The notes below the pieces were generated by a model. It did not search any database. It had not been told where the DNA came from and was given only the letters and a program-made list of their open reading frames with translations. 64,000 nt of DNA, from assembly GCF_000187895.1 (NCBI RefSeq), contig NZ_DS990130.1, positions 248,001 through 312,000 of the forward strand, written 5' to 3'. Below are positions 24,414 through 29,036 of the stretch, piece after piece. The stretch is from Phocaeicola plebeius DSM 17135. Its GTDB lineage: Bacteria > Bacteroidota > Bacteroidia > Bacteroidales > Bacteroidaceae. Position numbers and translations under genes: made by a program. Each line of letters begins with the position of its first letter. Position 1 is the stretch's first letter.

Positions 24414-24830
24414 ATGATAATTAAGCAATTGTCTGTTTTTTTGGAAAACAAGACCGGAAGAATCAATGATGTAGTGCATACTTTGGGAGCAAACGGTATC
24501 AATATGCACGCTTTTAGTATGGCCGAAACAGCAGATTTTGGTATTCTGCGACTGATTGTGTCTGATGTGGACAAGGCGGTAGAAGTATTGCGTGAAAAGA
24601 ATTTTGCCGTGATGTCGACTGATGTGGTTTGTCTTTCGTGTGCCAATGTGCCCGGCTCGTTGGCTGTGGTATTGGAATACTTGGCCGAAGAGCAGATTTT
24701 CATTGAGTATATGTATGCGTTTGCACAAGCCGATCAGGCTCATGTGGTTATCAAGCCGAATGACATGTCACAGTGTCTGAAAGTGCTTGAGGCGCATAAT
24801 TGTCATGTATTGGCAAAAGAAGAATTGTAA
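24414..24830 (+). CDS. Tandem ACT-domain protein
   Basis: A 138-residue protein made of two ACT domains (about residues 1-68 and 69-138). The first has KQLSVFLENKTGRINDVVHT and the second CLSCANVPGSLAVVLEYLAE. ACT domains bind amino acids. As the last gene of the operon with PaaK and IOR, it probably senses or feeds back an aromatic amino acid; comparable ACT genes are commonly paired with phenylacetate-CoA ligases. It has no catalytic domain and no DNA-binding domain. A strong terminator follows. Confidence 0.9.
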   Translation: MIIKQLSVFLENKTGRINDVVHTLGANGINMHAFSMAETADFGILRLIVSDVDKAVEVLREKNFAVMSTDVVCLSCANVPGSLAVVLEYLAEEQIFIEYMYAFAQADQAHVVIKPNDMSQCLKVLEAHNCHVLAKEEL

Positions 24831-25048: not shown

Positions 25049-26740
25049 ATGGGTATTGAAACATTGAATTTACGAAAAAATGTGTGGTGGATGTGTGTGA
25101 TGGTGTGGGCCTTTTTATTTTCTTCCTGTTCGACGGAGGATGATATCACATCATCGAGTGATGAATATTTGTCGTTGACTTTTACGAAAACACTTTCGCG
25201 TGCTGATTTGTCGCAAGAGGGTGCCGGAAGTTTCAGTGAAGGAGACTGCATTGGGCTTTATGTAGCATGTGAAGGAAACGTCTCTTATCGGGAACTAACC
25301 TTGACGGATGGTGAGTGGTATCCTCGTCTGAAGCGTTCCGAATTTGGGAAAGGACGTTTGACTTTATCGGCGCATTATCCTGTTTTATCGGAATCTTCAA
25401 GAATATCTCCTGAATCTTCTTCATTTTCGGTAGCTTCCGTACAGTCGGGAACTGGAAAGGATGCTTCCGATTTATTGTTTGCCCAAACCGTATTGGAAGA
25501 AGGAAGTTATCGATCAGCATTGATGTTTAACCATGTTTTACACCGTTTGAAAATACAACTTCAAAATGATGCGGAAGATGTAGAGGTCTTTGTGCGCAGT
25601 AAGGTCGATGGAAAGGTAAACTTGCTGACAGGTGAAACCTCTGTGAGCACTGACGAATATCAGTGGATTACTCCATGGAAAAATTCGGATGGAAATTGGG
25701 AGGCCGTTATATATCCACAGGAGACTACTCCTTATCGAGAAGGAGAAGGGTTGTTGAAAATTGTGACGCAGGGAAAAGAATCTTTTTTTAAGGCTCCTGA
25801 TAATGCCTCGGATGGAACCGTGTTGTCTGATTTTGAGTCAGGTAAGCAAGTGACTATTCGTTTGTCGCTCAAGGAAGGCGATGTGCAGTGGGCAAATAAA
25901 AAAGTATGGGTTTATGGAATTACCTCTCCCGATGAAAAGGACTGGAAGTTACTTTATCCCGGATTGTTTACATCTACTGCTTTGGTTTGGAAGAAAGAAT
26001 ATGGTTGGTATGATTGTAATAAACTAAATCCTACAGCGAATCCCGATGGAGTGCCCGATGGGTATATGTGTTGGGCTGCTACAGCGTCAAATATGTTGCA
26101 ATGGTGGATTGACCAGAATAAACGTTATATCGACATGTATGGGGATAAGTATACAGGACCGGATTATACATACCCATCTGGTAAAAAACAGGAAAGTAAT
26201 ATTTTTCAGTGTTTTTTAGATGCATTTCCCAATGAGGCTGGAAAGGGGGATGAAGGTGCTAACTGGTTCATACATGGAATAGCTCCTTCGTATCCTCATA
26301 ATAAGCCTTTAAATCCAGCAGGATATTTCAAGGATGTTTTTCCGGAAGGTGTACGTTTGGGAACCAATGTAGGAGGTCTTAGTAAGGAGCGTTTCAATGA
26401 AGTGATAAAAGATGCTTTGAGTACCAAGAAGGCGATAGGACTTTCTGTGGGACCGATAAGAGAGGGACATGTAATAACCATGTGGGGAGCGGAGTTTGAT
26501 GAAAATGGTGATGTATCTCATATTTATGTAGCGGACAATAATGACCGGGATACTTATGAATTTTTTAAAGGAGTAGGATGTTTCAAGTATCAGATTAGTT
26601 ATGAAAAATATCCTGAAGGTGCCACCTATACTTGTTATAAGGAGGGATATATTCCTTATGATAGACCTATTGTGATAAATCGCTTAGTATTTCTTGATTT
26701 AGGTGAGAAATACTGGAAGCAATATTTAGGTATTGAATAA
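25049..26740 (+). CDS. Surface lipoprotein with fimbrillin-like domain and IdeS/Mac-like cysteine protease domain
   Basis: A 563-residue lipoprotein. The N-terminus is a lipoprotein signal with lipobox FSSC (Cys27), followed by STEDD, an acidic stretch that fits the Bacteroidetes surface-export signal. Residues about 40-275 look like a fimbrillin-type beta domain. Residues about 285-545 resemble the IdeS/Mac (peptidase C66) family: YDCNK, then CWAATASNMLQWWIDQN with catalytic Cys341, then GHVITMWGAEFDENG with His474, and IYVADNND with Asp496. The His-to-Asp distance of 22 equals that recalled for IdeS (His262, Asp284). IdeS-family enzymes cleave immunoglobulins at the hinge; whether this one does is unknown. 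It is a single-gene unit. Confidence 0.87.
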   Translation: MGIETLNLRKNVWWMCVMVWAFLFSSCSTEDDITSSSDEYLSLTFTKTLSRADLSQEGAGSFSEGDCIGLYVACEGNVSYRELTLTDGEWYPRLKRSEFGKGRLTLSAHYPVLSESSRISPESSSFSVASVQSGTGKDASDLLFAQTVLEEGSYRSALMFNHVLHRLKIQLQNDAEDVEVFVRSKVDGKVNLLTGETSVSTDEYQWITPWKNSDGNWEAVIYPQETTPYREGEGLLKIVTQGKESFFKAPDNASDGTVLSDFESGKQVTIRLSLKEGDVQWANKKVWVYGITSPDEKDWKLLYPGLFTSTALVWKKEYGWYDCNKLNPTANPDGVPDGYMCWAATASNMLQWWIDQNKRYIDMYGDKYTGPDYTYPSGKKQESNIFQCFLDAFPNEAGKGDEGANWFIHGIAPSYPHNKPLNPAGYFKDVFPEGVRLGTNVGGLSKERFNEVIKDALSTKKAIGLSVGPIREGHVITMWGAEFDENGDVSHIYVADNNDRDTYEFFKGVGCFKYQISYEKYPEGATYTCYKEGYIPYDRPIVINRLVFLDLGEKYWKQYLGIE

Positions 26741-26765
26741 ATCATACTTCTTGTGAAGACATGAA

Positions 26766-26816
26766 AATGCCCCGAATCTGACAGCTTGATTAGCTTACGG
26801 ATTCGGGGTATTTTGC
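26766..26816. terminator. Bidirectional terminator between the protease gene and hppA
   Basis: Arms ccccgaatc and gattcgggg around a 21-base loop, flanked by A-rich sequence on the left and ttttgctttt on the right. It separates two convergent genes. Confidence 0.75.
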
Positions 26817-26831
26817 TTTTATCCTAGTTTA

Positions 26832-29036
26832 TCAGAATAAGCTCCATGAAACGGTCAGACCAGCCATGACGATGGCTACCATGCTCATCAGTTTAATCAG
26901 GATGTTCAGGCTGGGACCGGAGGTATCTTTAAACGGGTCACCTACCGTATCGCCTACTACTGTGGCCCGATGTACTTCACTGCCTTTCCCGCCAAAGTTT
27001 CCTTCTTCCACGTATTTCTTGGCATTGTCCCAGGCACCTCCGGAATTGGCCATGAAAATTGCTAGAATGAAGCCTGAAGAAAGTCCACCTATCAGCAGAC
27101 CGATGACGCCCGGCACACCAAACAGCAGACCTGTCACAATGGGGGCGATGATGGCCAACAGTGACGGGAATACCATTTCTTTCTGTGCGCCAAGGGTGGA
27201 AATCTGTACACAGCGTGCGTAGTCAGGTTCAGTCTTTCCTTCCAGAATACCTTTGATTTCACGGAACTGCCGGCGTACTTCCTCTACCATGTGGGCAGCT
27301 GCTCTTCCTACAGCATTCATGGTCAGTCCGCAGAACAGAAAGGCCATCATGCTACCGATAAACATTCCCGAAAGTACCTTGGGATTCATAAGCGTGACAT
27401 CGTAGAACATCATGAAGTCCGTGAATCCGGCTTCCTGAATCATTACTTCCAGTCCGTTGGGAAGTTCCAGTACGGTGGTACCGATACGTTCCAGTCCGAT
27501 GCGTATTTCTTCAATGTAAGAAGCCAGTAGTGCCAGTCCGGTCAGGGCGGCAGAACCGATGGCGAAACCTTTACCCGTAGCGGCTGTGGTATTGCCCAGT
27601 GAATCCAGTGCATCTGTGCGTTTGCGGACTTCTGCTCCCAAACCACTCATTTCCGCATTACCGCCGGCATTGTCGGCAATCGGTCCGTAGGCATCCGTGG
27701 CTAATGTGATGCCCAAAGTGGACAGCATACCCACGGCAGCGATACCGATGCCATAAAGTCCCATGCTGATGTTGGTGAAATCGAAACCAGAGGCCAGCCA
27801 GTAAGACAGGATGATGCCGGCTACAACTGCAATGACCGGAATCGTAGTGGATACCATTCCTAATCCGATGCCCGAAATGATGACGGTAGCCGGACCTGTT
27901 TTTCCGCTTTCCGCCAGTTTTTGAGTGGGCTTGTAGGATTGGGAAGTGTAGAATTCAGTAGATTGTCCGATGACGATGCCTACAATCAGTCCGATGACTA
28001 CAGCCAGTGAAATATACAGCCAGTTATCAATTTGCAGTACCCAAAGAATGCTAAAGGTGGCGATGACAATCAATCCCGCACTGAGGTTGGTGCCTGTAGA
28101 CAAAGCCTTGAGCAATTCTCTCATGCCTGCATTTTCTTTGGTGCGCACGGCAAAAATGCCGATGATGGACAAGATAATACCTACGGCTGCAATCAGCATC
28201 GGGGCGATGACGGCTTTAAACTGCATGGCGGTATCTCCCGTGCCGATATAGGCAGCAGCTCCCAGGGCAGCGGTAGCCAGAATCGAACCGCAGTAGGATT
28301 CATAGAGATCGGCTCCCATTCCGGCCACATCACCTACGTTATCGCCTACATTGTCGGCAATCGTAGCCGGGTTGCGTGGGTCGTCTTCCGGAATGCCCGC
28401 TTCTACTTTTCCCACCAGGTCAGCTCCCACATCGGCCGCCTTGGTATAAATACCTCCTCCTACACGTGCAAACAAAGCTTGGGTGGAGGCGCCCATTCCG
28501 AAAGTCAGCATCGTGGTGGTAATGACGCATAACTTGGCAGTGGGGTTCAGTGCATCTTCCGGAATGCAGAAATCCAACAGCAGGTACCAGAAAGAAATAT
28601 CAAACAATCCCAGTCCTACGACCACAAGTCCCATAACCGCTCCACTGCGAAATGCCACCTTTAATCCTTTGTTCAGAGAGTTGCGTGCGGCATTTGCGGT
28701 ACGTGCAGAGGCATACGTAGCGGTTTTCATACCTAAGTAACCCGACAGACCGGAGAAGAAACCTCCAGTGAGGAATGCTACGGGTACCCACGGATTTTGC
28801 AAGTTGAACCCATAGGCCATGATGGCAAACAAGGCAGCCAGTCCGATAAATACAAGGGTAACTATTTTATATTGCTGTTTCAGGTAAGACATGGCTCCTT
28901 TCCGGACATACGATGCAATGCGTGCCATGGTGGGGGTACCTTCGCTTTCCTGCTTCATTTGCCGGTAGAAGTATCCGGCAAGTGCCAATGCCAGCAGCGA
29001 TGCCGCCGGGACCAGCCAGAATAGATATGTTTCCAT
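26832..29036 (-). CDS. hppA: Membrane-bound ion-pumping pyrophosphatase, K+-dependent type
   Basis: A protein of about 734 residues with 16 or so membrane segments that pumps Na+ and/or H+ using pyrophosphate hydrolysis. The PPi-binding loop is [20 protein letters not shown] with [15 protein letters not shown]. The start at 29036 ([10 protein letters not shown]) is preferred over one nine residues upstream. The segment [14 protein letters not shown] has Ala where K+-independent enzymes have Lys, the accepted sign of a K+-dependent enzyme, and K+-dependent enzymes from Bacteroides are known to pump Na+ or both Na+ and H+. A minus-strand -7 box (TAAGTTTG, 29061-29068) lies just upstream. Confidence 0.95.

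Follow-up and report, generated by a model that had tools for sequence, protein, structure and literature searches.

Peptidase family C66 is the Mac-1 family of Pfam (PF09028; PMC10318531). Pathogens are known to make Mac/IdeS proteases, and those family members that have been studied cut host antibodies or complement. IdeS/Mac-1 of Streptococcus pyogenes (PDB 2AU1, 1Y08, 2AVW and 8A47) is described in PMC9759587 as a secreted, IgG-specific enzyme whose specificity depends on extensive contacts with Fc, and imlifidase, a Mac/IdeS protease, is a drug (PMC9759587). According to PMC12418751, Tyr255 and Asp286 hold Lys84 in IdeS-type enzymes, and IdeC of Streptococcus canis (9HB1 and 9HB2) is IgG-specific; the PDB gives "IgM protease" as the molecule name of these two entries, both of which PMC12418751 lists as IgG protease IdeC. 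T-Mac (TDE0362) of Treponema denticola (9ARC, 9MDK, 9MDM and 9MDO), as reported in PMC11833123, carries a C-terminal Mac-1 domain on a surface lipoprotein behind beta-sandwich modules, is both surface-anchored and released, has Asn585 and no equivalent of Tyr255, and cuts C3, C3b, C4 and factor H, leaving IgG and IgA uncut. For Bacteroid- homologues of Mac-1/IdeS, the literature searched, as far as its accessible text goes, yielded only one sentence of PMC11833123 on homologues in the CFB group, and the main text of PMC10318531 contained no word starting with "bacteroid". A protein encoded on a Bacteroides finegoldii plasmid (WP_022274958.1 on NZ_OY725919.1) is already annotated as "IdeS/Mac family cysteine endopeptidase". 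The type V pili of Bacteroidia (FimA/Mfa1) are built, as PMC11316588 and PMC5954841 describe them, from lipoprotein precursors with fimbrillin-like domains that are matured at Arg and encoded in clustered pilin genes, with Arg-gingipains trimming FimA and Mfa1. The identity of C66 with Mac-1, the annotated Bacteroides homologue and the mention of CFB-group homologues were thus known; what is new here is a partner gene, an orphan copy of it, and a pattern of short versus complete pilin ends. In the literature searched, which consisted chiefly of open-access texts, we came across neither the fimbrillin fusion nor the partner gene.

The locus studied here lies in a stretch of 64,000 nucleotides from Phocaeicola plebeius DSM 17135, called the window below, and has the following features.

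24414..24830, forward strand: upstream neighbour, gene for an ACT-domain protein; flank of the site, outside the system
25049..26740, forward strand: whole gene for a lipoprotein with a fimbrillin-like domain and a Mac-1 domain; open reading frame with ATG start, 563 aa (Pfam)
25049..25129, forward strand: signal sequence closing in the lipobox FSSC, with predicted lipidated Cys27 (read from the sequence)
25130..25144, forward strand: STEDD after the lipid Cys, which we take to be an acidic lipoprotein-export-like signal (read from the sequence; putative function)
25199..25201, forward strand: Arg51 (Arg-Ala), candidate pilin-maturation cleavage site (alignment column; putative role by analogy with type V pilins)
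25226..25876, forward strand: fimbrillin-like domain Mfa_like_1 (PF13149), profile positions 6-233 of 246, last segment unmatched (Pfam)
25901..26737, forward strand: Mac-1/C66-type cysteine protease domain, residues 285-563, the Pfam stretch being 316-503 (Pfam, PDB alignments, profile)
26021..26023, forward strand: Lys325, which aligns with Lys84 in the oxyanion hole of IdeS; Lys in 67 of 70 rows
26069..26071, forward strand: Cys341, predicted nucleophile (alignment); Cys in 67 of 70 rows
26468..26470, forward strand: His474 (alignment); His in 70 of 70 rows
26534..26536, forward strand: Asp496, aligned with Asp284 of IdeS; Asp in 67 and Glu in 3 of 70 rows
26540..26542, forward strand: Asn498, which occupies the position of Asp286 in IdeS and of Asn585 in T-Mac; the 70 rows have Asn 48 times, Asp 21 times and Ala once
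26764..26814, no strand: inverted repeat after the stop codon, between convergent genes, with 23-nt arms that are 83% complementary; probably a terminator
26832..29036, reverse strand: downstream neighbour, gene for an H+-pyrophosphatase; flank of the site, outside the system

A sequence-only reading of this DNA had proposed an IdeS/Mac-like cysteine protease fused to a fimbrillin-like domain behind a lipobox and an acidic export signal, and each of these elements was recovered. In the 563-aa protein, Pfam places Mac-1 at residues 316-503 with 82.3 bits (E 4.5e-23), 62 bits above the curated cut-off of 20.3, and Mfa_like_1 at residues 60-276 with 62.4 bits; Pfam gave nothing beyond these two domains and NCBIfam gave zero matches. 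The gene is the single Mac-1 match in the whole 4.42-Mb genome, the same profile search had matches in 0 of 14 control genomes, and a spaced pattern modelled on the protein's own motifs was found 0 times in 20,000 shuffles of the domain. When the isolated Mac domain was compared with the PDB by phmmer, T-Mac came first with 71.5 bits and IdeS next with 66.4 bits, the chains below E 0.001 being exclusively T-Mac and streptococcal Ide/Mac proteases. A profile of 36 Mac domains matched IdeS with 129.4, T-Mac with 125.8 and IdeC with 111.4 bits, and covered IdeS (2au1) over positions 1-275 of 281; the match to IdeC suggests the same fold family and active site there also. This profile (alignment A4) was built from 36 of the 38 rows of alignment A3, two Treponema rows being left out, and A3 consists of the window protein and 37 of 45 locus proteins (omitted were L056, L078, L103, two of L105, two of L109 and L112). 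The lipid-bearing Cys27 is nearly invariant (90% or more) in alignment A1, for which 21 of 25 sequences (the window protein and 24 selected hits) were used, without L006, L009 (Arg for Cys), L011 and L019. The resemblance to Mac/C66 proteases at the level of profiles is solid, and, judged by its sequence, the gene is a real and intact gene of the Mac-1/C66 protease type for a fimbrillin-like lipoprotein.

The Cys, His and Asp blocks, with a His-to-Asp distance of 22, are all present as the earlier reading had them: Cys341, His474 and Asp496 align with Cys94, His262 and Asp284 of IdeS, as Lys325 does with Lys84, and the position of Cys341 is occupied by Ala in 2avw and by Ser in 9mdm, as for catalytic-Cys variants. 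Because the input of A3 was filtered on Cys/WW and His/WG motifs, the invariance of Cys and His in that alignment is by selection, and the conservation counts given above and the tree were taken from 70 rows that cover more than 180 profile positions, with no motif selection. At Lys325 and at Cys341, two of the three exceptions are in each case truncated pieces, and the remaining ones are Gln for Lys325 in a Treponema MAG row and Arg for Cys341 in Phocaeicola coprophilus. In the P. coprophilus copy (L045:8307-9749, L009) the N-terminal half is also split, and split frames occur in the further relatives L067, L061 and L039.

Around this triad the window protein resembles T-Mac in two respects. 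Both have Asn at the position 498/585 and both are without an equivalent of Tyr255. The network of Lys84, Asp286 and Tyr255 in IdeS is not preserved here, Lys being kept and the other two being replaced by Val467 and Asn498 in an alignment that is gapped near 467. The 48 rows with Asn498 are the window, 45 Bacteroidota and two Treponema rows, and all six rows with Tyr467 are Bacillota with Asp498, in the same gapped loop. An unrooted tree of the 70 rows joins the window with 45 Bacteroidota and 2 Treponema rows on a branch supported at 97/92, separate from Bacillota; T. denticola TDE0362 and IdeS are not among the rows sampled for this tree, and a third Treponema row (L080) is placed elsewhere than on this branch. 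T-Mac differs in having N-terminal bacterial Ig-like domains in place of the fimbrillin-like domain and Glu583 in place of Asp496, and a pilin partner is not mentioned for it in the accessible text of PMC11833123. The protein of the B. finegoldii plasmid aligns with residues 280-560, 50% of the query, at 33.2% identity and does not match the fimbrillin half.

These comparisons bear directly on the substrate, for which the sequence-only reading had put forward IgA, IgM or IgG first. That the domain is an IdeS-like immunoglobulin protease, cutting IgA, IgG, IgM or avian IgY, appears to us quite unlikely, even if it belongs to the same family, its triad and oxyanion Lys align with those of IdeS, and the whole-domain match to IdeS is slightly higher than that to T-Mac, which also speaks against the caution over antibody cleavage; the gut surface, moreover, is bathed in IgA. 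Against it, the best single-sequence match in the PDB, T-Mac, spares IgG and IgA, and the pair Tyr255/Asp286 of IdeS is missing, with the reservation that the loop around 467 is gapped. Many relatives bear poultry-derived names, and to our knowledge birds have no hinged IgG; among the best 80 of 97 stretches, the relatives whose titles give a source come from guts of birds, ruminants or other animals, or from the mouth. The extensive Fc contacts on which IdeS depends are also unlikely to persist at such distance. We consider a host immune protein to be the most likely substrate, with a complement component and an antibody equally good guesses. Cleavage of antibodies is thus possible and unproven rather than the favoured default, and an IgG protease is no longer the default reading, the present clues not having proved any substrate.

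In relatives, a stand-alone gene for a fimbrillin-like lipoprotein of 282-321 aa often stands next after the fusion gene on the same strand, its frame starting anywhere from 59 bp ahead of the end of the protease frame to 84 bp past it. Of 97 stretches that were confirmed, the best 80 were kept, giving 79 loci. In these, counted as loci and not as independent events, the partner gene adjoins 26 of 40 fimbrillin-Mac fusions and is absent beside the other 14; it also stands beside 2 of 39 other loci, where the N-terminal half lies outside the frame (L068) or off the contig (L081). The profile of the partner matches PDB entries 4k4k and 3ufi, and the N-terminal half of the window protein gave only a chance-level Fab match in the PDB (E 0.84). 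The window gene and its 76%-identical relative L034 have no partner at the locus. The description of the window gene as a stand-alone gene accordingly holds within the window, where the neighbours encode the ACT-domain protein and the H+-pyrophosphatase, but fails for the family, in which the partner is frequent and of which an orphan partner exists in this very genome.

This orphan is a complete partner gene (G000:C3:217708-218562, 324 bits) and shares 63% identity with the B. mediterraneensis partner. There, in L043 and L067, the genes stand in the order of an SDR-like gene (a function assigned by reading the sequence), the protease and the partner, and in the genome of the window it is the SDR-like gene, 250 bp and the partner; blastn against L043, L067 and L045 revealed no protease remnants between the two. 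The orphan belongs to the L043 type and is 33% identical to the partner in L035, which was found with the window's own clade. Because the orphan locus has no protease trace where L043 and L067 carry the gene, it seems that the resident protease either disappeared or never existed, and a protease of another subclade occupies the window site. About 1.3 kb from the orphan (L149:736-5401, G000:C3), a CHAT-domain protein, a 249-aa protein, a sigma-factor-like ORF, for which no Pfam match was obtained, and a caspase-domain (C14) peptidase are encoded consecutively. The genome also encodes a GH16 stretch of 177 residues that is identical to PDB 8ep4.

A further reading is that the enzyme is decaying, having been left as a partnerless orphan that has ceased to function. 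Such decay would fit the partnerless locus and the damaged copies of relatives (Arg for Cys in P. coprophilus L045 and the broken frame of L067), but the frame in the window is intact, the active-site residues are kept, and the 76%-identical copy at the same site in another genome has an open frame too, so that we regard decay as highly improbable.

The earlier suggestion that the gene may have been acquired gains support from an empty site in relatives and from transfer of the protein family between bacterial families elsewhere. PF09028 was found in 14 of 60 genomes of the genus, 20 of 298 of the family sample, 11 of 392 of the order sample and 3 of 392 of the phylum sample, the samples overlapping and the genome studied being counted in each. 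The protease stands between the ACT and H+-pyrophosphatase genes in this genome; in another (G040) it likewise follows the ACT gene, and in the named copy of that contig (L034) the pyrophosphatase gene comes after it. Among 30 loci of the site, taken from matches in 34 of 38 genomes, two have the protease, seven have the flanks 85-220 bp apart and one has them 1,318 bp apart, all eight protease-free, and 20 have neither a pyrophosphatase gene in reach nor the protease. In the clade of the window (100/100), which has 9 rows, members of Bacteroidaceae, Rikenellaceae and Muribaculaceae stand intermingled, as named in the submitters' titles, mostly of MAGs. Alistipes sp. An66 and Barnesiella sp. 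An55 share 3,355 bp of the protease-partner unit at 99.7% identity; the An66 contig is only 4.9 kb, so that contamination is possible for that record. An55 likewise shares 3,136 bp of the unit with Muribaculum sp. An289, at 98.5% identity, and the flanks differ in both cases. These near-identities indicate that the protease-partner pair moves between families of Bacteroidales.

In the records L054, L056, L059 and L081, the unit is 96-99.7% identical at the DNA level across Alistipes, Barnesiella, Muribaculum and Cryptobacteroides, and some of these adjoin transposase-like and AraC-type regulator ORFs. At the ends of the shared unit of 3.1-3.4 kb, inspection by eye showed a common left edge and transposase-like ORFs nearby, and no clean terminal repeats were found; the ends of the window gene showed only short, imperfect families of direct repeats. 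Phage records gave zero matches and plasmid records one distant match. On the B. finegoldii plasmid (L155, NZ_OY725919.1), the gene for the Mac-family endopeptidase adjoins a transposase gene. Base composition was rejected as a sign of transfer, the 40.6% G+C of the gene being too weak a deviation from the mean of 45.9% (sd 3.5) of 21 window ORFs taken as genes. A scan of the window with what we presume to be the Bacteroides promoter consensus gave three matches, none near the gene, with 0.93 expected by chance, and was discarded as well.

The same distribution is relevant to the idea that the enzyme acts on something other than the immune system, whether other surface proteins, mucus or dietary protein, proteins of competitors, or pilins in maturation. 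The family occurs also in diverse commensals, including Akkermansia and Clostridia (best 80 of 97 stretches), as this idea would lead one to expect; in the descriptions cited at the outset, however, T-Mac, IdeS and IdeC all cut host immune proteins, and patchy distribution, transfer and loss suit a niche-specific factor better than housekeeping processing. A non-immune substrate is thus, in our estimation, unlikely.

The pilin-like half hints at how the protease might be displayed. The Mfa_like_1 profile has 246 positions. Its match stops at 233-238 in 11 of 11 fusions (the window and 10 of the 40 fusion loci), leaving the final 8-13 positions uncovered, and is complete (246/246) in 14 of 14 partners (the orphan and 13 of 28 locus partners); as a local alignment may end early, the lack of a match to the final pilin segment is no more than suggestive. 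In the window protein, the match ends at 233 of 246, and the C-terminal segment left unmatched would be the donor strand. A short end of this kind is what a pilus cap would need: a pilin with a groove and no last strand to offer could only terminate a chain, which is why we propose a cap or tip for the fusions. At position 51, the 38 rows have Arg in 23, Lys in 6, another residue in 2 and a gap in 7, so that 29 of 31 lettered rows (among them two from Treponema, which have no fimbrillin domain) have Arg or Lys. This residue lies near what we take to be the trimming positions of FimA and Mfa1. With type V pili the window protein shares the predicted lipoprotein precursor and the fimbrillin-like domain, and Arg51 is a candidate for their maturation at Arg; it differs in the unmatched end of its pilin profile and in the protease domain that comes next.

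The other pilin-like proteins of this genome fit the cap pattern less neatly, and the rule is not clean. Its 16 Mfa_like_1 matches include 8 that reach 246, 6 that end at 227-242 and 2 that end earlier, and in L156, L161 and L164 the profile reaches 246, yet about 200 or more residues follow. As these ends are complete despite long C-terminal parts, a following domain alone does not shorten the match; by the same token, a complete end is compatible with C-terminal cargo.

Taking these lines together, we favour, with a probability of roughly 0.55, a surface-anchored Mac-1/C66 cysteine endopeptidase on a type V pilin-like module, most likely cutting a host immune protein. The precursor would be exported and then lipidated at Cys27, and the acidic signal would direct flipping onto the outer surface. 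Trimming at Arg51 may then free the groove of the pilin module for the last strand of a partner pilin, after which the protease domain would sit exposed as a cap or tip, and Cys341, His474 and Asp496, with Lys325 in the oxyanion hole, would cleave passing substrate, whose nature is the least certain element of the scheme.

The genome encodes other fimbrillin-like lipoproteins with enzyme domains. One (L150:3132-6692, G000:C17:4131-7691) bears a DNA/RNA non-specific endonuclease domain with the motif DRGH, and its Mfa_like_1 match ends at 234 of 246; 30 bp after it comes a gene for a fimbrillin-like lipoprotein with a complete Mfa_like_1 match and a weak MAM-like match, the same two-gene layout as in the Mac pair. 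Another (L165:415-2394, G000:C14:207613-209592) bears Peptidase_M64, a family named for IgA cleavage; its profile match ends at 242, its zinc motif is HEYGGH, not an exact HEXXH, and it is the last of four consecutive Mfa_like_1 genes. A 1,192-aa protein of a Cruoricaptor MAG (L078:5229-8804) combines M12B metalloprotease and GEVED domains with a C-terminal Mac-1 domain. We tentatively propose that gut Bacteroidales may use pilin-like lipoproteins as interchangeable carriers of enzymes, the Mac protease being one cargo and the endonuclease and M64-family domains being others; a strandless cap would be paired with a neighbouring complete pilin, the pair would be mobile, and the protease in the window would have replaced a lost resident and would borrow the orphan pilin. 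As a joint proposal this is rather unlikely to hold in full, and we lowered its odds slightly because the three complete-ended pilins also bear long C-terminal parts.

If the favoured reading of a surface-anchored Mac-1/C66 protease is true, a mobile Mac family would be placed on the surface of gut commensals, where it could cut immune proteins locally. The layout of a pilin module with a separate partner bears directly on whether type V pilin parts serve to display enzymes. The Mac members of Bacteroidales, moreover, are numerous, and their active site differs from the one found in the IgG-specific enzymes of streptococci.
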